From an uncultured Pelagibacteraceae bacterium (GTDB taxonomy: Bacteria > Pseudomonadota > Alphaproteobacteria > Pelagibacterales > Pelagibacteraceae): a stretch of DNA of 64,000 nt. The first letter of the stretch is position 1. Each line of letters starts with the position of its first letter. The translations under genes were made by a program, and so were the position numbers. The notes beneath the pieces are model-generated. The model had not been told where the DNA came from, searched no databases, and was given only the letters and a program-made list of their open reading frames with translations. Below are positions 14,053 to 46,704 of the stretch, piece by piece. The stretch lies in NCBI GenBank assembly GCA_902547535.1, contig CACCOB010000002.1, forward strand, positions 62,001-126,000, in the 5' to 3' direction.

Positions 14053-14138
14053 GCGGCCATGCTGAAATTGGTAGACAGGCACGGTTGAGGGCCGTGTGAG
14101 CTTAGCTCATGAGAGTTCGATTCTCTCTGGCCGCACCA
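14053..14138 (+). tRNA. tRNA-Leu (anticodon GAG)
   Basis: The 7-bp acceptor stem GCGGCCA / TGGCCGC pairs 14053-14059 with 14128-14134, and the 3' ACCA is encoded (14135-14138). The anticodon arm CACGG-TTGAGGG-CCGTG gives anticodon GAG, reading CUC/CUU leucine codons. There is a long variable arm (GAGCTTAGCTC) as in class II tRNAs, and the T arm is GAGAG-TTCGATT-CTCTC. It lies between the divergent nadA and accessory methyltransferase genes. I saw no repeated copy of its 3' end nearby that would mark it as an integration site. Confidence 0.97.
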
Positions 14139-14213: not shown

Positions 14214-14236
14214 AAACCCTCAATCTAAAGAATTTG

Positions 14237-15148
14237 ATGATAAAAAATCCAATAATTAATGAACTTATAAAGCTAAAATTGATCAATAAGTCAGATTTAA
14301 ATATTATAAGTGAATCTACTAGAGATAAAAAAATAAGAGTAATTAAAGATAAAAAATCTAAAATTATTTTTCTGGAAAAGTTTGCCTCAAATAACAACTA
14401 CTATAAATACCTAAGATATAATGACAATGACAGGAAAAATATAGATAAGGTTAAAAAAATTACTAAAGTTAAAACATTAACTGGAATAGTAAAAACACCC
14501 ATAATTGATGATGACTTGAGGAGATTTAACCAATTTAAAAATTTTCTTAAAAATAAAGAAATTCTAGACTTTGGTTGTGGATGGGGTGGATTTTTAAATA
14601 AAATTAAAAATGCAAAGTCAATAAATGGAGTAGAGTTAAGAGTTGAATGTATTGATTATATAAAAAATAAATTTAAAAAAATTAAAATATTTAATAACTT
14701 AAATTTAGTAACAAAAAAATTTGATATTATTACAGCATTCCATGTTTTGGAACATATTCCATATCAAATAAATACACTGAAACTGCTAAAATCAAAACTT
14801 AAAAGGAATGGAAGAATAATTATAGAGGTTCCTCATGCAGAAGACTTTTTAATTTTACAAGATGAATTAAAAGAATTTAAAAAGTTCACATTTTGGAGTG
14901 AACATTTAATTCTCCACACTCACACATCTCTCAAAAAGGTTCTTCAACAATCTGGATTTAAAAATATCAAAATAAAATATTTACAGAGATACAATTTTGC
15001 AAATCATTTAGGTTGGTTTTTAAAGAAAAAACCTGGCGGACATAATAGCTATGCAAATATAACAAGTTACAAACTGGATAAAGAATATAAAAATAATCTT
15101 ACTCGTTTACGACAAACAGACACATTAATTGCCGAAGCAAATATTTAA
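14237..15148 (+). CDS. Class I SAM-dependent methyltransferase of unknown substrate
   Basis: 303 aa from the ATG at 14237 (a TTG lies one codon upstream). The C-terminal two thirds are a Rossmann methyltransferase: motif I LDFGCGWGG at 110-118, an acidic GVELR at the end of beta 2, FDIITAFHVLEHIP as motif II/III, and LKRNGRIIIEVPHAED as the following strand. The N-terminal ~90 residues are Lys/Asn-rich and unassigned. Similar proteins occur in surface polysaccharide and secondary-metabolite loci, but there is no such context here. It is followed 7 bp later by a second SAM-like protein, so the two are probably one accessory unit. Confidence 0.8.
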   Translation: MIKNPIINELIKLKLINKSDLNIISESTRDKKIRVIKDKKSKIIFLEKFASNNNYYKYLRYNDNDRKNIDKVKKITKVKTLTGIVKTPIIDDDLRRFNQFKNFLKNKEILDFGCGWGGFLNKIKNAKSINGVELRVECIDYIKNKFKKIKIFNNLNLVTKKFDIITAFHVLEHIPYQINTLKLLKSKLKRNGRIIIEVPHAEDFLILQDELKEFKKFTFWSEHLILHTHTSLKKVLQQSGFKNIKIKYLQRYNFANHLGWFLKKKPGGHNSYANITSYKLDKEYKNNLTRLRQTDTLIAEANI

Positions 15149-15155
15149 TTTTTTT

Positions 15156-15797
15156 ATGTTTATAAAGATCATAAAGTTATTTATTCCAGAAATTATTTTT
15201 CTTATTTATAGAAAACTTTTTAAAACTAAAAAAAAAAAATTTTTGTTTGATGGTCATTCTAAATTATTTAAAGACTCTATTTCTAAAGAAACAATTTATG
15301 GAGAATATGGTTGTGGACTTTCAACTTGCTACGTTTCAAATAATTTTGAAATTCCAATATATTCAGCAGAATCAGATTTAAATTATATAAACAAAACAAA
15401 AAAACTTTTAAAATTTAAAAATACTAAATTTATTTATGTTAATATTGGAATTGTAGAAGAAGGTAGCTTTGGAAGACCTTTAGACTTTTCCATGAGAGAA
15501 AACTTTATGGTTTATGCCAATTCAATTTGGGAAAATGAATATAAGCCTAACTTTGTACTTATAGACGGTAGGTTAAGGGTTCTTTGTTTTCTAATTTCTT
15601 TAAAAAGATGCAATAATAATACAACAATTATATTTGATGATTATGTAACTAGAAAACATTATCATATAGTAGAAGAGTTAATAAAGCCTAAGTTGAATGA
15701 TATGAGACAAAGTTTATTTTACGTAGAAGATAAAAAAAAAATTGATACGAAAAAATTAGAATTTCTTATTAATAAATTTAATTATGTTCTAGATTGA
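15156..15797 (+). CDS. Hypothetical protein with SAM-methyltransferase-like fold
   Basis: 213 aa from the ATG at 15156; an upstream TTG would overlap the previous gene. The N terminus MFIKIIKLFIPEIIFLIY is hydrophobic and could be a membrane anchor. YGEYGCGLSTCYVS (about 48-61) resembles a degenerate methyltransferase motif I, followed by YSAESD and later NFVLIDGRLRVLCFL and TTIIFDDY, a pattern seen in methyltransferase-like proteins of polysaccharide loci. The substrate is unknown. The stop at 15797 is only 19 bp from the left repeat of the ssrA-associated island, so this is the last gene of the pre-insertion flank. Confidence 0.65.
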   Translation: MFIKIIKLFIPEIIFLIYRKLFKTKKKKFLFDGHSKLFKDSISKETIYGEYGCGLSTCYVSNNFEIPIYSAESDLNYINKTKKLLKFKNTKFIYVNIGIVEEGSFGRPLDFSMRENFMVYANSIWENEYKPNFVLIDGRLRVLCFLISLKRCNNNTTIIFDDYVTRKHYHIVEELIKPKLNDMRQSLFYVEDKKKIDTKKLEFLINKFNYVLD

Positions 15798-15816
15798 ATT
15801 ATTGGGTGTTCGTATA

Positions 15817-15841
15817 GGGGCGTTCTGTTGCCAGGTGCCCC
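15817..15841 (+). repeat. Left 25-bp direct repeat (candidate attL core)
   Basis: These 25 bp are identical to 19167-19191, where they form the last stem-loop of the ssrA coding RNA. On the minus strand the repeat folds as GGGGC/GCCCC around CTG-GCAA-CAG, a GNRA-type tetraloop. No other part of ssrA is present at this end, so this is not a second tmRNA gene but most likely the displaced 3' end left by site-specific integration. Confidence 0.8.
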
Positions 15842-15858
15842 GAACTATGTATCCGTGT

Positions 15859-16017
15859 TCACCAATAAACACACCTAAATACTACCATTAATAGAACACC
15901 AATCAAGGAACTTGTGACGCCACCATGACGCCAAATATTGGAAGAGGGGTCCCAAACAAAGTCCAAAATAGATTTAATTAAAGTTACCCACATACCAATA
16001 ACTACATAAAGGGGTCC
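15859..16017 (-). CDS. Possible small two-helix membrane protein
   Basis: A minus-strand reading frame rich in Val, Leu, Trp and Gly, unlike chance frames in this AT-rich DNA. From a GTG at about 16017-16020 it would give roughly 53 aa with hydrophobic stretches GPLYVVIGMWVTLIKSILDF and VTSSLIGVLLMVVF joined by a WDPSSNIWRHGG loop. A longer version would start at an ATG at 16080, but the extra 20 residues look noncoding. It overlaps the TGACGCCA double repeat, so sequence constraint here may come from that site instead. No ribosome binding site is obvious. Confidence 0.3.
   Translation of the reverse strand, partial: GPLYVVIGMWVTLIKSILDFVWDPSSNIWRHGGVTSSLIGVLLMVVFRCVYW
15915..15934 (+). repeat. 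Left TGACGCCA double repeat (candidate arm-type site)
   Basis: TGACGCCAC, two bases, then TGACGCCAA: two copies of an 8-mer offset by 11 bp (one helical turn) on the same strand. The near-identical partner is at 19092-19111 at the other end of the island. The two lie 73 and 55 bp from their respective core repeats. The spacing on one face of the helix suggests protein binding. Confidence 0.5.
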
Positions 16018-16090
16018 CACTGCTTTAGGTGTATAGCAAGTCGAATAAAGACAGGACAATTGGAAACTTTTTGGTACCATAAATAATTCA

Positions 16091-16294
16091 ATGGCTTGGT
16101 ATAATATAAATTCTCAGGATAGCGTAACTGCGGAAACTTTAGAAAAAATTAGAACTGAAAGGTGCGGTTTTTGTGGACAAGAAAAACCAGTTAGAAAGAG
16201 AATGAAAATATATTTTTCAGAATTTGAAATGGCAGAAAAACCAGTATGTCGAGATTGCTATGTCCAGAATTCAAAAAAGGCAATAGCTACTTAG
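16091..16294 (+). CDS. Small zinc-motif protein, unknown function
   Basis: 67 aa with two CxxC pairs, CGFC at 25-28 and CRDC at 53-56, separated by 24 residues with a basic stretch (KPVRKRMK). This is the layout of a small zinc ribbon or treble-clef domain that could bind DNA, RNA or protein. The first 23 residues are polar and contain no membrane segment. First plus-strand gene of the island; its last codons are part of a 15-bp sequence repeated at the far end of the cargo (19036-19050). It could be a regulator or recombination directionality factor by size, but nothing in the sequence proves that. Confidence 0.65.
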   Translation: MAWYNINSQDSVTAETLEKIRTERCGFCGQEKPVRKRMKIYFSEFEMAEKPVCRDCYVQNSKKAIAT

Positions 16295-16302
16295 TTTTAA
16301 AG
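16288..16302 (+). repeat. 15-bp direct repeat, left copy
   Basis: TACTTAGTTTTAAAG is present here across the stop codon of the zinc-motif gene and again at 19036-19050 just after the last cargo gene; similarity extends weakly a few bases upstream. The two copies bracket the six-gene operon, suggesting that the operon was inserted or exchanged as a cassette within the island. Confidence 0.5.
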
Positions 16303-16335
16303 GATATCATACGATAAATATAGGCAGACTCATGG

Positions 16336-16364
16336 TTCATGATTTGTTAGTCTTGGATCATGAA
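16336..16364 (+). promoter_or_regulatory. 8-bp inverted repeat before the cargo operon
   Basis: TTCATGAT (16336-16343) and ATCATGAA (16357-16364) form a perfect inverted repeat with a 13-base spacer, in the 103-bp gap before the operon start at 16398. There is no T-run after it, so it is more likely an operator or an mRNA leader hairpin than a terminator. Confidence 0.35.
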
Positions 16365-16397
16365 AATAAGCATGATTAAAAAAAGAGATCAAAGTTA

Positions 16398-16886
16398 ATG
16401 CTAGATTGGACGGCCTTCGGTCTAGAGTGTGATAATAAAACTAAATTTCATTTAAGCTATGGTGGAGATGGAATGAATATAACTTTGATAGGCTCTACAA
16501 TTAATACCTCAGAATTTGTCTCAAGAAGAGAAGATTATTTTGATAAGATTGATAAGTTCAAAAAATGGAGTGTAGTTATATTTCCCCAGGACAAAATTAA
16601 AAAAAAAAATTATGGTGAAATATGGCTTTCAGAGGAACAACTACCTGAACCCGATTTCGAAGGCATGTCAGCACAACTTGATATTCATTTGTTTATGAAA
16701 GATAATATCTTTAACAGATTGTGTTCCGATATAGCAAATAACGATATTGAATACGTTAAAAAGTTAATCATTTATATGCAAGTAAGCAAAAAAGAAATTA
16801 TTAAAGAAGATTGCCACAAATTAATTGTTCAGAGTTTCGGGGTAACTTATAATCGTAGAGAAACACTAGATGCACTTTTCTCATAA
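16398..16886 (+). CDS. Hypothetical cytoplasmic protein of the island operon
   Basis: 162 aa, no signal peptide or membrane segment. The first half looks beta-rich (LDWTAFGLECDNKTKFHLSY, MNITLIGSTI, WSVVIFPQDK) and the second half helical (DIANNDIEYVKKLIIYMQVSK). The overall look, a small acidic soluble protein heading a cargo operon, resembles immunity or adaptor proteins, but no family motif is recognised and no function is claimed. It is first in a compact run of six genes and is followed 6 bp later by a secreted protein gene. Confidence 0.65.
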   Translation: MLDWTAFGLECDNKTKFHLSYGGDGMNITLIGSTINTSEFVSRREDYFDKIDKFKKWSVVIFPQDKIKKKNYGEIWLSEEQLPEPDFEGMSAQLDIHLFMKDNIFNRLCSDIANNDIEYVKKLIIYMQVSKKEIIKEDCHKLIVQSFGVTYNRRETLDALFS

Positions 16887-16892
16887 ATTAAT

Positions 16893-17375
16893 ATGAAAAA
16901 ACTTTTAGGGATCATAGTTTTTAGTATTTTGTTTTGCCAAAGTGCAAATGCTGTAATGACTAAATTAAAATGCAAAGATATCATTATGGGAATAGCTTTT
17001 GATGACTATATTTATATAAATTTTGATGAAAAAATTATTCAAGTATTTCAAGGATCAGGGGGTAACAAAGTAGAATTTTTTGTTAAAAAAATCGATGAAT
17101 ACGTAGTTGAGTCAGAGGCGAGACCGCTTGTTGAGGGTTCGAAATATAAATCTAAATCTGGAGAATATAAAAAATACACAACCTATATCAGTGATTGGAC
17201 AGAATGGTGGAGTTCTGATTTTAAAGATCATTTATGGTTAGTTAAAATTGATCGACTTCAAGGGTTTGCAGGAATAGGAGTGTCTGAAGAGCCTATTGAT
17301 GGTAAAACAGAAAAATTTAATATTGATGATGCATACACAATGGAATGTAAAAAAAGAGGAACATCCAAATTCTAA
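16893..17375 (+). CDS. Small secreted protein, paralog 1 of 3
   Basis: 160 aa with a clear signal peptide MKKLLGIIVFSILFCQSANA, cleaved after residue 20 by an ANA-V site. The mature part starts with an LKC motif (Cys27) and ends in YTMECKK close to the C terminus; the two cysteines could form a disulfide that ties the ends together. Midway the sequence LWLVKIDRLQGFAGIG contains the hydrophobic-[DNS]-R-x-x-G core shared with the proteins encoded at 17387 and 18094. Predicted periplasmic, function unknown. Confidence 0.72.
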   Translation: MKKLLGIIVFSILFCQSANAVMTKLKCKDIIMGIAFDDYIYINFDEKIIQVFQGSGGNKVEFFVKKIDEYVVESEARPLVEGSKYKSKSGEYKKYTTYISDWTEWWSSDFKDHLWLVKIDRLQGFAGIGVSEEPIDGKTEKFNIDDAYTMECKKRGTSKF

Positions 17376-17386
17376 ATAATAAATTT

Positions 17387-17857
17387 ATGAAAAAACTTTT
17401 AAGTATTTTAGCTCTGAGTTTGTTTATGAGCGGGAGTGCTTATGCAGAAATTGTCCTTTTAAAATGTGAGTATGAAGACGGTAAACTACAACGGTATAAA
17501 AATAACAAACCCCAAAAGGTTGAAAAAGATAACGCAATAAAAGAATATGAAATAAAATTGGACCTTGCTTTAGAGACAGTGACGGATGGACCTGGGACTG
17601 GTTATGGTAGCACAGTTTTTTGGAAAGATGATTTTATTACGTGGATGTCCGACAATACTGTTGTAGGTCCTTATGACATGATGACTATTGCTAGTTTAAA
17701 TAGATTCAATGGTAAATTAATTATAGATCGTAAATCATTTAAAAGAGTTGTAGAAGACGGACACTTTCAAAAAGATTCTAACGGTAATTGGATCAGAAAT
17801 ATAGAGTGGGATTCACAATCTGAATACCAATGTAAAAAACAAGATAAACTATTTTAG
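17387..17857 (+). CDS. Small secreted protein, paralog 2 of 3
   Basis: 156 aa. Signal peptide MKKLLSILALSLFMSGSAYA, cleavage after AYA at residue 20; its first five residues equal those of paralog 1. The mature N terminus EIVLLKCEYEDGK has the shared LKC cysteine, the centre has IASLNRFNGKLIIDR (shared NR-x-x-G core), and the C terminus SEYQCKKQDKLF has the second shared cysteine. Apart from these landmarks it is strongly diverged from its neighbours. The stop is immediately followed by the ATG of a small membrane protein gene. Confidence 0.72.
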   Translation: MKKLLSILALSLFMSGSAYAEIVLLKCEYEDGKLQRYKNNKPQKVEKDNAIKEYEIKLDLALETVTDGPGTGYGSTVFWKDDFITWMSDNTVVGPYDMMTIASLNRFNGKLIIDRKSFKRVVEDGHFQKDSNGNWIRNIEWDSQSEYQCKKQDKLF

Positions 17858-18091
17858 ATGACACTTAGAGAAATATTCACATCAACTGCTGAAGGTGCAA
17901 CAACAGTCTTTAATTGGTTTCTAGACACTAATATATTTGTTTTGATCGGAATGTTTGTTTGCTTAGTGATGGGTCCATATTATGCTTTTACACTTCTGAG
18001 AGCAAAAGAAACTGGCAAGAAAGTAGTGGGTGGTTTCTTTGCATTAGCATCATTATTTTTTTATTACTTATTAATTGATGTACTGATCTAA
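17858..18091 (+). CDS. Small two-helix membrane protein
   Basis: 77 aa. Two hydrophobic helices are seen at about 26-48 (FVLIGMFVCLVMGPYYAF) and 57-77 (VVGGFFALASLFFYYLLIDV), joined by a basic loop (LRAKETGKK) that should lie in the cytoplasm. No family is recognised. It begins on the base after the stop of secreted paralog 2, so the two are almost certainly made together, and ends 2 bp before paralog 3. Confidence 0.65.
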   Translation: MTLREIFTSTAEGATTVFNWFLDTNIFVLIGMFVCLVMGPYYAFTLLRAKETGKKVVGGFFALASLFFYYLLIDVLI

Positions 18092-18093
18092 TA

Positions 18094-18603
18094 ATGAAAA
18101 AAGTTATATTAATTTTATTAATTATATTTTGGAACAACATTTCTTTTGCAGAGGTTGTTGATTTAAATTGTAAGTTAGGAGATAGAAAATTCTATGCAGG
18201 ATTAGACTTTGAAAATTCCAAATGGTTGAATGAAGACGGAACATCAACTTATATGACATATAACGATGATGTAATTGGAACTGTCAAACGTCAAAGCAAA
18301 ATGGATATAACCCATACACTTTGGATACTTTCAAGAAAAACAGGTGTTGGTGAAATTGCAGGATATGTATTAACTGAGGAGGAATTGGATTTAATATCAA
18401 ATAAACAAATAGAAGATATTATTTTAAAAGAGATTGGTGATTTGGAAAATAAAGGTTTGGATTCTGCTAGAAATAAATCTTTTGCACAAACAATTGTTGA
18501 ATATTTATTGAATAGACCAAATAAAAAAGTTGCTGGATATGAAGTACCACCTATTACAACTGAATTTGAATGTGAGAAATCAGAGAAAAAATATAAATTT
18601 TAA
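18094..18603 (+). CDS. Small secreted protein, paralog 3 of 3
   Basis: 169 aa. Signal peptide MKKVILILLIIFWNNISFA, then EVVDLNCKLGDRKFY with the first shared cysteine, TLWILSRKTGVGEIAGYV with the shared SR-x-x-G core, and TEFECEKSEKKYKF with the second shared cysteine at the C terminus. It has an extra helical segment (TEEELDLISNKQIEDIILKE) between core and C terminus that the other paralogs lack. Its stop overlaps the next gene's start by 1 bp (TAATG). Confidence 0.7.
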   Translation: MKKVILILLIIFWNNISFAEVVDLNCKLGDRKFYAGLDFENSKWLNEDGTSTYMTYNDDVIGTVKRQSKMDITHTLWILSRKTGVGEIAGYVLTEEELDLISNKQIEDIILKEIGDLENKGLDSARNKSFAQTIVEYLLNRPNKKVAGYEVPPITTEFECEKSEKKYKF

Positions 18604-18995
18604 TGGAGTTTTTAGATAATCTTTTTTTTGGTGTTGAATCTAACAATTCGTGGGGACTTATAATAATTGGGATTTTAATTCTAATTGCAGGATCAATAAG
18701 AATTAAAGATTGTTTGGATAAAAAAAGAAATTTTTTTATATCTACAATTATATCACTAGGTATTTTAATAGTTAATTGGGTGTTTGTATTATCTCTTTTC
18801 TTAGGTGTGGGGCATTTGGGAAGTTATATTAAATCTCTTTATTATATTCCATATTATTTACAGTACGCCTATTTTATCTTTTGTGCTGTTGGTGGATTTT
18901 TGTTGTTTTCTTTATTCTATATTTTTAACTATAAGTTTTATGCAAACTATAGAGATAATGGAAAATTAAGTTTTAAGAATAAAGTTAAATCTTAA
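18603..18995 (+). CDS. Three-helix membrane protein, unknown
   Basis: 130 aa with hydrophobic segments at about 17-33, 44-68 and 86-110 and a basic C-terminal tail (NGKLSFKNKVKS). No recognised family. Coupled to secreted paralog 3 by a 1 bp overlap, which repeats the secreted-then-membrane order seen at 17387/17858. Last gene of the cargo operon; no strong terminator follows. Confidence 0.65.
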   Translation: MEFLDNLFFGVESNNSWGLIIIGILILIAGSIRIKDCLDKKRNFFISTIISLGILIVNWVFVLSLFLGVGHLGSYIKSLYYIPYYLQYAYFIFCAVGGFLLFSLFYIFNYKFYANYRDNGKLSFKNKVKS

Positions 18996-19035
18996 TTAAT
19001 TTTGTATTTCCTATTTCTCAATTGAGATTAAGAGT

Positions 19036-19050
19036 TACTTAGTTTTAAAG
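19036..19050 (+). repeat. 15-bp direct repeat, right copy
   Basis: Identical to 16288-16302 (TACTTAGTTTTAAAG). It lies 40 bp after the last cargo gene and, with the left copy, brackets the six-gene operon. Confidence 0.5.
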
Positions 19051-19091
19051 AGTGTCTTATCCAGGAGTTCCTTTACTAAATCTCTTTTTTC

Positions 19092-19111
19092 TGACGCCAC
19101 TGTGACGCCAA
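19092..19111 (+). repeat. Right TGACGCCA double repeat (candidate arm-type site)
   Basis: TGACGCCAC, two bases, TGACGCCAA, in the same orientation as the copy at 15915-15934 and differing from it at two positions. 55 bp from the core repeat in ssrA. Confidence 0.5.
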
Positions 19112-19159
19112 CCTGTATCTACTTTCTAAAAAGTGTTTATTTTTCTAGCGAACCGAGAA

Positions 19160-19423
19160 TCTGGAAGGGGCGTTCTGTTGCCAGGTGCCCCAAGCCCCGT
19201 GACTTAATTAGTAAACTAATTAAGCTGCAAGTGCATAACTTTCGTTAGCATTTATAAATTTGCCCATCACGGCGGAACAATACCGAACGAAAGAACAACT
19301 TTTAAACACCCGTCGATCCTAATTCACCCCCATAAGTTGAAAATGGTGGAGGTGGTGGGTACTGCCCCCACGTCCGTAATGGTTATTACGAAATTCGTTT
19401 ATCGTCATAGTTGGAAAACCAAC
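19160..19423 (-). ncRNA. ssrA: Circularly permuted two-piece tmRNA
   Basis: Rescues stalled ribosomes and adds a degradation tag. On the minus strand the acceptor RNA comes first and ends in CCA (19346-19344). After a 12-base spacer (19332-19343) the coding RNA begins at about 19331. The acceptor stem GGGGGTG (19331-19325) pairs with CACCTCC (19354-19348) over all 7 bp (one G-U), and the T arm is CGTGGGG/CCCCAC-like. The tag frame at 19249-19220 reads ANESYALAA then TAA, inside a 9-bp hairpin CTTAATTAG-TTTA-CTAATTAAG, with CCGTGA/TCACGG closing the tag loop. The last stem-loop (19191-19167) carries a GCAA loop and is the repeat used by the island. Outer ends are approximate. Confidence 0.93.
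19167..19191 (+). repeat. Right 25-bp direct repeat inside ssrA (candidate attR core)
   Basis: Identical to 15817-15841. In the RNA it forms the 3' hairpin of the coding piece, so insertion at this point restores a functional ssrA end, as is usual for islands that target RNA genes. Confidence 0.8.
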
Positions 19424-19429
19424 GCTATT

Positions 19430-19457
19430 AATATAAAACCAAATAGAAGAGATTCAA
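19430..19457 (-). promoter_or_regulatory. Promoter of ssrA
   Basis: On the minus strand TTGAAT (19457-19452) and TATATT (19435-19430) are separated by 16 bp, placing the transcript start near 19423, right at the first bases of the acceptor piece. The promoter sits only about 11 bp from the divergent thyX ATG, so thyX must use an overlapping promoter or an almost leaderless mRNA. Confidence 0.55.
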
Positions 19458-19467
19458 TAATTTATTC

Positions 19468-20415
19468 ATGAAACTTACAAAAGAACAAATAAACGACATT
19501 AAAGATCAACAATCCCAAGAAAATGTAACTAAGAGAGTTACAGCTCCGGAATTAGAAAAAGTATTATATGAGGCAATGCCAGCTTTAGACCACGGCTTTA
19601 TAAGAGTTATTGACTATATGGGAGATGATAGTTCAATTGTTCAATCTGCAAGAGTTTCTTATGGCAAAGGAACTAAACAAGTTTCAACAGATAGTGGATT
19701 GATAAAATATTTAATGCGCCATTGGCATAGCACTCCATTTGAAATGTGTGAAATTAAATATCATGTAAAATTACCAATATTTATAGCAAGACAATGGATT
19801 AGACATCGTACAGCAAACGTCAATGAATACTCGGCAAGATATTCAATTTTAGATAAAGAATTCTATTTACCTGATCCACAAAATTTAGCTGCTCAATCAA
19901 TTGCAAATAGACAAGGTAGGGGTGATGTGATTGATGGAGATCAGGCAAAGGAAGTTTTAGAACTTTTAAAAAATGATGCTGAAAGAACATATGATAATTA
20001 TGAAACTATGCTTAATCAGAAATTTGATGGGTCTACAATTGACGAAAATAAAAAAGGATTAGCTAGAGAGTTAGCAAGAATGAACCTAACTTTGAATACG
20101 TATACCCAGTGGTATTGGAAAACTGATCTTTTAAACTTAATGAATTTTTTAAGATTACGTGCTGATCATCACGCTCAATATGAAATTAGAGTTTATGCAG
20201 ACATAATGTTGGATACATTAAAAAGATGGGTTCCAATTACTTATGATGCTTTTATGGATTATAGAGTTGGGGGAACTGAAGTTTCAGCTAAAGGTAAAAT
20301 TATTATTCAAAAGTTATTAAAAGGTGAAAATGTAAACATCGATAATTCTGGACTTTCAAAAAGAGAGTGGAACGAGCTTATGGAAGCTTTTGAAATTAAA
20401 GATAAGATTGTTTAA
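19468..20415 (+). CDS. thyX: Flavin-dependent thymidylate synthase
   Basis: FAD/NADPH enzyme that methylates dUMP to dTMP using methylene-THF, replacing ThyA. 315 aa, longer than the roughly 220-300 aa usual for the family because of extra N-terminal residues and a C-terminal tail. The ThyX motif [14 protein letters not shown] is at 112-125 and the region [20 protein letters not shown] just before it binds FAD. The C-terminal [22 protein letters not shown] block is also diagnostic. Divergent from ssrA; its 3' end overlaps convergent mrp by 20 bp. Confidence 0.95.
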
Positions 20416-45971: not shown

Positions 45972-46038
45972 AAAATTCCAGTAATCTTGAAATAAATAAA
46001 TAATGCAAATTTATATGCTTATGATATTATCATTTTTA

Positions 46039-46085
46039 GATAGTCCTATCTAGCCATCTTTAGCTCCCGGTTTTTTAGGGCTATC
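46039..46085 (+). promoter_or_regulatory. Possible structured mRNA leader of the LysE-family gene
   Basis: GATAGTCC (46039-46046) can pair with GGGCTATC (46078-46085) over 8 bp with one G-U, ending 4 bp before the ATG at 46090. An alternative hairpin uses AGCTCCC (46062-46068) against the same GGGCT. Two structures competing for one strand just before a start codon would suit translational control. No known riboswitch was recognised. Confidence 0.3.
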
Positions 46086-46089
46086 CATC

Positions 46090-46704
46090 ATGTTTCCTTT
46101 AAATTATTTTCTATTTCTCCAAATTATCTTATTCATGTTTATAACTCCTGGAACTCCTAGAATTGTAATTATTTCATATTCTATGAATTATGGTGTTAGA
46201 AATTGTTTTTGGACTGCACTAGGAGATGTTACTGCAAATATTATTCAAGCATGTCTTGTAATTTTTGTAATTGGATCTTTTATCTCTGATAATCCAACTT
46301 TATTAAATATTATTAAATGGTTTGGTGTAATTTATATACTTTACCTTGCATTCGATATTTATAAATCTAAAACTAAAGACATTAACTCAAGTGAAACTTT
46401 ACACAAAAGTTCGTTATCATTTTTTAAAGATGGTTTTTTAGTTGCGGGCACAAGTCCTAAAGCTTGGATGTTCTTCCCTTTTATTTTTCCTCAATTCATT
46501 GATTTCAATTCAAATTACGTTGCACAATTTTTAATTTTAATAACAACTTATGTAATATTAGATTTTTTATCTTTGGTTGGTTATGCAGTCTTAGCTAATA
46601 AAATGATTACATGGGTTAAAGCAAAAGCAAAGGTCATAAACACAATTTCTGCGTGCGTCCTAGTTGTTATAGCTCTTATAATTGCATTTATGCAACAATA
46701 TTGA
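46090..46704 (+). CDS. LysE-family amino acid exporter
   Basis: 204 aa with about six hydrophobic segments. The N terminus FLFLQIILFMFITPGTPRIVIISYSMNYGVR carries the family's helix 1 and TPGP-like motif (here TPGTP), and FLVAGTSPKAWMFFPFIFPQF is the usual LysE/RhtB central signature. Probable exporter of amino acids or similar compounds. The 118-bp gap upstream may hold a structured leader. Confidence 0.87.
   Translation: MFPLNYFLFLQIILFMFITPGTPRIVIISYSMNYGVRNCFWTALGDVTANIIQACLVIFVIGSFISDNPTLLNIIKWFGVIYILYLAFDIYKSKTKDINSSETLHKSSLSFFKDGFLVAGTSPKAWMFFPFIFPQFIDFNSNYVAQFLILITTYVILDFLSLVGYAVLANKMITWVKAKAKVINTISACVLVVIALIIAFMQQY

Follow-up and report, generated by a model that had tools for sequence, protein, structure and literature searches.

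In a 64-kb stretch of DNA from an uncultured Pelagibacteraceae bacterium (the window, to which all coordinates refer), a 3375-bp integrated element lies behind the gene for transfer-messenger RNA (tmRNA), from hairpin to hairpin at 15817-19191 with its interior at 15842-19166. SAR11 bacteria are among the most abundant bacteria of the ocean and have small genomes with few mobile elements; the genome from which the window is taken comprises 1.28 Mb in 10 contigs and is 88% complete. Most probably, the element is a non-autonomous cargo element that bears the address label of a satellite-type integrase and is moved by that integrase in trans. As far as sequence can tell, the insertion is precise, relatives have empty sites, identical arms lie beside an integrase in another genome, the cargo differs between shared ends, and one integrase is truncated. 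In the mechanism that we propose, the 3' hairpin of the tmRNA would be the attachment core, and both ends would carry arm-type sites of a lambda-type tyrosine integrase for which the element itself has no gene. A rare, satellite-like element of the type found in genome G266 would supply this integrase, which would bind arms and hairpin and so insert or excise the cargo element in trans, the end of the tmRNA being rebuilt at each insertion, and transfer from cell to cell would presumably rely on a phage or another helper.

The element is bounded by a 25-mer, GGGGCGTTCTGTTGCCAGGTGCCCC, which occurs exactly and on the same strand at 15817-15841 and 19167-19191 and for which 100 shuffles produced no match. 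Its right copy forms the terminal stem-loop in the coding piece of a minus-strand, permuted tmRNA of alpha type (ssrA, 19163-19461, tag ANESYALAA) that is recognized by RF01849 (E = 6.7e-65) and assigned by ARAGORN to class tmRNA*. The distal copy, also on the minus strand, has AGTTC before it on that strand, as do many distal copies of other cassettes. Between the hairpins are seven small open reading frames (ORFs) on the plus strand and one doubtful ORF on the minus strand. None of these eight reached a curated Pfam cut-off, the best PHROGs match had an E value of 0.0036 and the sole PADLOC match one of 0.0072, and no recombinase was found among them in the three scans. An earlier note on this DNA, made from the letters alone, had proposed an insertion at the 3' hairpin of ssrA in which an exact 25-bp repeat of the last tmRNA stem-loop restores the end of the RNA, with only small unrecognized genes and no recombinase inside; each part of this description held up. 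The window genome contains one further hairpin copy at up to three mismatches, which has one mismatch and lies 3' of a gene that, from its sequence, we take to be rnhA-like.

Empty sites among relatives, on which the earlier note had staked its proposal, are common. We classed 71 hairpin-bearing tmRNA loci (the window, 65 others, and five added later from G185, G315, G303, G266 and G106), calling a site empty if a conserved chromosomal feature, either tRNA-Leu or a gene presumed to be nadA-, mazG- or ppdK-like, lay within 250 bp. The site is empty at 28 of the 71 loci and holds an insert with a distal hairpin copy at 16; 19 have an insert or other sequence without a distal hairpin, seven a gap of 251-1000 bp, and one is too short to class (27, 13, 18, 7 and 1 of 66 if the five added loci are left aside). 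Most of the genomes are incomplete assemblies, and related species are not independent samples. The loci nearest to the window, judged by DNA identity of the flank that carries what is presumably thyX, are L236 (92.2%), L056 (88.9%) and L221 (88.7%), and all three are empty, with tRNA-Leu beginning 26 bp behind the tmRNA hairpin. L232 and L414, the next nearest, have inserts. On this comparison the repeat pair marks a real, precise insertion. The tRNA-Leu(gag) gene of the window is located at 14053-14138 on the plus strand, and past the distal hairpin an extra 1.7 kb with two genes, which has no hairpin of its own, comes before it. Its two genes (14234-15797), one for a methyltransferase (PF13489, E = 1.1e-21) and one an ORF of 209-222 aa that matches no Pfam family, stand in place of the 26 bp of the closest relatives, as a probable second insertion.

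A second, independent signal, which goes beyond the earlier note, is a tandem repeat inside both ends of the element. The pattern TGGCGTCA-N3-TGGCGTCA is found on the minus strand at 19092-19110 (TGGCGTCACAGTGGCGTCA, 56 bp from the tmRNA-side hairpin) and at 15915-15933 (TGGCGTCATGGTGGCGTCA, 73 bp from the distal hairpin). It had no match in 100 shuffles, and at up to two mismatches it was found nowhere else in the window genome. Tandem arms at both ends are the layout of the attachment site of a lambda-type tyrosine integrase, and the repeats are therefore read here as putative arm sites. Across 399 genomes of the genus, the exact tandem occurs at eight places in six genomes (two each in G000 and G315, one each in G303, G266, G393 and G034), all of them 56-73 bp from a hairpin copy, and the reversed pattern, used as a control, had one match each in two genomes. 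Other hairpin-bounded intervals have the same layout of two 8-mers at a period of 11 with other sequences, TCCGCACT in L080 and TGGCACAA in L070. For 37 intervals of 300-9000 bp, the resemblance between the two ends of an interval averaged 15.1 compared with 11.3 for shuffled pairs, and none of 5000 permutations reached the observed value. Clear arm pairs are those of the window, G185, L413, L414, L420, L070 (two), L080, L081, L084, L089 and L092. At L437, L439, L442 and L447, hairpin-less integrases from this broad family show paired repeats immediately in front of the start codon (by eye), and the arm layout may therefore be general in this group of SAR11 integrases.

When used as a DNA query against the 399 genomes, the window element gave matches in 248, mostly pieces of 30-70 bp and few long ones. 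G315 (L413) and G303 (L414) have elements of 4.0 and 4.6 kb at the tmRNA site whose ends match those of the window element at 93-96% identity, over 166 bp on the left and 533 bp on the right in G315 and over 91 and 550 bp in G303. Both keep the gene for a 67-aa CxxC...CxxC protein that adjoins the distal end in the window (16091-16294, plus strand; all family matches sub-threshold), and their other interior genes are different. This protein is 98.5% identical in G315, 97.0% in G303 and 92.5% in the integrase-bearing element of G266. On contig C19 of G266, the tmRNA, the hairpin and a window-type left end with its arms are followed directly by a tyrosine integrase (PF00589, E = 1.8e-19; phrog_1, E = 6.3e-52). 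The right end is on contig C5 and matches at 81%; it includes the 67-aa gene and arms that are degenerate, and a protein resembling primases (phrog_21866, E = 4.2e-7) is encoded there too. No capsid gene was recognized in the pieces of G266 seen.

The G266 integrase, used as a protein query, had matches at E values of up to 0.001 in 35 of the 399 genomes. The next closest, at 52%, starts 66 bp behind an exact hairpin in G185, where a complete 6.2-kb element between exact hairpins encodes this integrase, small genes and a DUF5906/phage-primase-like protein; its arms differ from those of the window and are of the TGGTCGGG type (by eye). Related inserts with an integrase, for which the earlier note had suggested a search, are thus present in G266, with the same arms, and in G185. 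Flanks could be checked for 30 of 36 listed integrase matches, and a hairpin was nearby only in G266, in G185 and at an integrase fragment in G263; likewise, of 317 different sequences on the right side of a hairpin, two have an intact integrase (G266 and G185) and one has a truncated one (G263). In a 13-row tree, the integrases of the two hairpin sites group as a single clade (support 99/98). The integrases of G211 and G413 adjoin a tRNA-Met gene. Relatives of the G185 primase (81% and 60%) are found in G204 and G277, two elements whose integrases are distant, and therefore replication modules and integrases seem to be exchanged.

The earlier note had left two possibilities, a borrowed integrase and decay, and there is evidence for each, the former from G266 and the latter from G263. 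In G263, a hairpin and arms are followed by the first ∼34 codons of the integrase and then by other DNA, with two hairpins preceding the fragment, and the cargo element of G303 retains the stretch that leads from arms to integrase in G266, ending with the last base ahead of the start codon. This truncated gene and this leftover leader point to an origin of the cargo elements from integrase-bearing ones by deletion. Exchange of cargo would have followed, because interiors differ between shared ends and because a three-gene set (138/143/85 aa; 54, 68 and 85% identical) is common to G315, which has the window arms, and G114, which has others. Conceivably, the window element could be a dead relic, that is, a satellite that, after a single insertion, was deprived of integrase and primase by deletion and is now immobile (a cis-mobilizable element, CIME, in the strict sense). 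G263 documents a deletion of this sort at an intermediate stage, and an integrase of this type is missing from the window genome. However, the same ends enclose different cargo ORFs in two other genomes, and no cargo exchange would be expected from a relic; in G393 the hairpin on the rnhA side has this end type as well, and the window element has kept its two arms and its two cores intact. We therefore consider a relic unlikely. The cargo element of the window may still be able to move, and an integrase of the G266 type would act on its ends.

An alternative for the helper is a temperate phage in place of a capsid-less satellite, with the cargo element borrowing the integrase of a prophage. 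The integrase does belong to a large phage family, phrog_1, its 270 tblastn matches include 20 Pelagibacter phage records, and the G266 element is incomplete in the assembly. Yet none of the phage records reaches 60% identity, IMG/VR contained no relative of the G266 integrase or of the G185 primase, and no virion family was found among seven proteins scanned from the complete G185 element, with its integrase, primase-like and small genes. A phage in this role is accordingly quite improbable. Strict hairpin patterns detected eight contigs in IMG/VR, and the seven that were read each have a phage-borne tmRNA around the hairpin. These phages (L154, L168, L179, L198, L214, L215 and L216) have a tmRNA of their own with the 25-bp hairpin exactly as in SAR11, beside proteins that we take to be ribonucleotide reductase-like. 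Patterns of the conserved distal end had no match in two scans of IMG/VR.

Other candidate movers were also considered. PF00589 had a match in 75 of 101 genomes, mostly a single Xer-sized protein of ∼310-325 aa. Nine other integrases, fetched with 16-18 kb, had no hairpin there at up to eight mismatches. Xer was rejected as the mover, as was a serine recombinase, PF00239 being found in 0 of 101 SAR11 genomes, many of them incomplete, with the control positive in 10 of 14. A home-made integrase profile found its own seeds and, at default settings, nothing in 5277 ORFs from 238 hairpin loci; without filters the best E value in this set was 0.011 (G266 and G185 were found later).

Going beyond the earlier note, the hairpin is also located 3' of genes other than ssrA, and the element is one of a group whose members have their ends in common and have exchanged cargo. 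At least 120 GTDB contig stretches contain the 25-mer; among the matches listed, 119 are titled Pelagibacteraceae, Pelagibacterales or Ca. Pelagibacter, and the other, with the exact SAR11 hairpin, is a contig titled as a Rhodobiaceae metagenome-assembled genome (L362, PAHC01000018.1). Another family of the same order has a tmRNA hairpin with a different stem and a related loop (five loci shown), and therefore the hairpin is a native part of the tmRNA. At up to three mismatches, 84 of 101 genus genomes contain the hairpin, 42 of them in two to six copies. In the 85 loci examined in detail, hairpins bound 33 intervals of 0.2-6.3 kb and none of the copies is reversed, and G028:C12 has five copies in a same-orientation series. 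Genes carried in these cassettes encode, among others, a type I restriction-modification pair, a GIY-YIG/NUMOD endonuclease, an HNH protein and a protease resembling trypsin; many further products are small and have stretches that look like signal peptides or are hydrophobic. Copies lie 3' of rnhA and a few other genes, where gene-holding intervals are also found (L082, L085 and L420).

Directly after the rnhA stop codon the hairpin is polymorphic, present at nine of 27 ends read (30 loci fetched; L475-L503, including L494 and L480). It is present in the genome of the window and missing in the near relative G004, and among these hairpins one has eight mismatches and several have four or five.

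Tyrosine recombination needs identical overlap sequences. The loop variant ACCGGGTAACAGA is found in the tmRNA of G001, G028, G086 and G098, and also in non-tmRNA copies of G028 (five sites, one with an extra change) and G098 (two), as well as in two more non-tmRNA copies, in G263 and L312, whose tmRNA lies outside the data seen. In L053 the distal loop is partly changed and the tmRNA hairpin is standard. Matched loop variants fit the need for identical overlaps, and common descent would give the same pattern.

Partnerless copies behind rnhA and other genes, in the sense orientation in the examples read, could suggest that nothing here is mobile and that the hairpin is a dispersed terminator-like repeat, two copies of which flank the genes by accident. 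However, this leaves the paired arms, the empty sites and the integrase neighbour unexplained and is contradicted by the arm data. In addition, the distal copy is antisense to the preceding gene, and no terminator-like site was found at 15700-19500, for which reason a terminator role was rejected; accidental flanking is hardly credible. The fold is no better than that of shuffled sequences in the tmRNA context (z = -0.75) and better at the distal copy (z = -2.29). Short hairpin sites behind small groups of genes, in same-orientation series such as the five of G028:C12 and with none reversed in the 85 loci, also resemble integron cassettes, in which a folded single-stranded hairpin is recombined by an IntI-type recombinase. 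Here, however, the sites are conserved in sequence as well as in fold, many are flanked by paired repeats, and the hairpin-linked integrases are of phage type, with only a weak match to IntI4 among solved structures (E = 4.7e-4), making an integron-like mechanism highly implausible. A broader proposal, which we offer tentatively and as somewhat less probable than not, is a SAR11 cassette system in which the tmRNA hairpin, copied behind other genes, would be a shared docking site, interchangeable arm pairs on integrase-less cassettes would be address labels recognized by particular satellite integrases, and cargo would be shuffled between labels, sites and cells with no recombinase encoded by the cassettes.

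Several observations weigh against movement of the window element in trans by a G266-type integrase. An exact tandem of arms at each end is limited to the window element and G315; the left end of G303 has a single arm unit, G393 a degenerate pair and G034 no recognizable pair, and the arms of G266 are degenerate at one end. A clear matched arm pair is seen, by eye, in only ∼12 of the 37 intervals, and some pairless intervals (for example L061 and L065) probably consist of chromosomal genes followed by a hairpin. The left and right pieces of G266 are on different contigs, so that this element is incomplete in the assembly. An intact integrase of its kind is beside a hairpin in only two of the 399 genomes, as judged from the 30 of 36 listed matches whose flanks could be checked, none of hairpin type was found in the window genome, and the integrase clade, consisting of two rows only, was reached by 29 of 500 label shuffles. 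Lastly, no helper virus was found in the IMG/VR scans for hairpin and distal-end sequence or in the integrase searches.

Beyond the 67-aa gene, the cargo of the window element consists of six plus-strand ORFs. The first, of 162 aa (16398-16886), has no assigned family and has homologous DNA in G373, G351 and G410, at loci without a hairpin. It is followed by ORFs of 160 aa (16893-17375) and 156 aa (17387-17857), which start with MKKLLGI and MKKLLSI, respectively, and look signal-peptide-like by eye, a hydrophobic (by eye) ORF of 77 aa (17858-18091), an ORF of 169 aa with a signal-peptide-like start (by eye; 18094-18603) and a hydrophobic (by eye) ORF of 130 aa (18603-18995). DNA homologous to the 156-aa ORF is found in G238 at a hairpin-less locus, and G238 also has DNA homologous to the 169- and 130-aa ORFs. 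A defence role for this cargo was rejected, the only PADLOC match having an E value of 0.0072. The DNA at the MKKLLGI/MKKLLSI starts (16884-16933 and 17376-17447) recurs in many genomes, and in other cassettes similar starts are joined to different mature parts, as though the leader formed a module. Upstream of a cargo gene, a 41-bp stretch at 16326-16366 with the palindrome TTCATGAT...ATCATGAA has short matches (76-94% identity) in at least 30 other genomes and longer ones in G303, G315 and G238. Elsewhere in the window, 46021-46103 is an rhtB small RNA (RF01814, 76 bits).

Among known systems, the ssrA islands of Dehalococcoides are alike in that a short repeat of the tmRNA 3' end bounds an insert behind the tmRNA gene; in the excerpted text of that report, islands with varied cargo stand in tandem behind the gene, bounded by a 20-bp repeat of its 3' end, and sixteen, hence not all, have an integration module (PMC3146451). 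Those islands use a serine recombinase, DsiB/DsiA, and insert in the T-loop region according to the same excerpts (PMC3146451), whereas the SAR11 elements are small and have a tyrosine integrase with paired arms, a permuted tmRNA and a hairpin in its coding piece. No CcrB-like serine recombinase of the Dehalococcoides type was detected, as judged by PF00239 in the 101 genomes above. CIMEs, as portions of a review describe them, are decayed integrative and conjugative or integrative and mobilizable elements that keep attL and attR, have lost integration genes, undergo tandem accretion with related elements and move with a neighbour (PMC5704250). The window element likewise retains attL and attR without integration and transfer genes. 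Unlike CIMEs as described there, its relatives look like satellites, and identical arms occur in separate genomes, which suggests action in trans. The integrase-bearing relatives carry primase-like genes, and no conjugation family was found among their scanned proteins, the G266 element being incomplete.

The microcin H47 island of Escherichia coli is, according to its abstract, a 13-kb island with extensive imperfect direct repeats, experimentally proven to excise and integrate (PMC3191183). It resembles the window element in being small, flanked by direct repeats and devoid of a recombinase of its own, H47 being moved by functions from elsewhere; its abstract mentions no family of elements, such as SAR11 has, that have ends in common and exchange their cargo (PMC3191183). 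The integrase-bearing G185 element is comparable to the phage-inducible chromosomal minimalist islands (PICMIs) of Vibrionaceae, satellites that, in the passages available, have an integrase and a primase (DUF5906 in the search model), no capsid remodelling genes, and fis as their target (PMC10803314). The window element, in contrast, has neither integrase nor primase and is located at the tmRNA gene and not at fis. Taken as a phage satellite, with an integrase and a replication gene and no capsid set, G185 qualifies as scanned, with no AlpA match among its scanned proteins, and the window element does not; taken as a genomic island at a tmRNA or tRNA gene, the window element has precise ends and an empty site and lacks an integrase of its own. 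The additive flexible islands of Methylophilaceae share streamlined aquatic bacteria as hosts, and no recombinase is named in the excerpts of that work (PMC10872708), whereas arms and an integrase-bearing relative suggest a mechanism in SAR11. Integron arrays that are clusters of attC sites lacking integron-integrases (CALIN) similarly rely, in the portions consulted, on a recombinase elsewhere (PMC11389934); phage-type (phrog_1) linked integrases and paired arms set the SAR11 elements apart. A literature search, thin in its coverage of subscription papers and so no proof of absence, yielded no report of integrase-less elements at SAR11 tmRNA, and a passage search of a SAR11 ecogenomics paper (PMC7318151) did not find the words tmRNA, integrase or cassette.

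If the proposed mechanism is true, arms matched to an integrase would link a cassette to its helper in a way that can be tested, and part of the flexible gene pool of SAR11 would be accounted for by a family of cargo elements that lack an integrase and whose address labels can be read.

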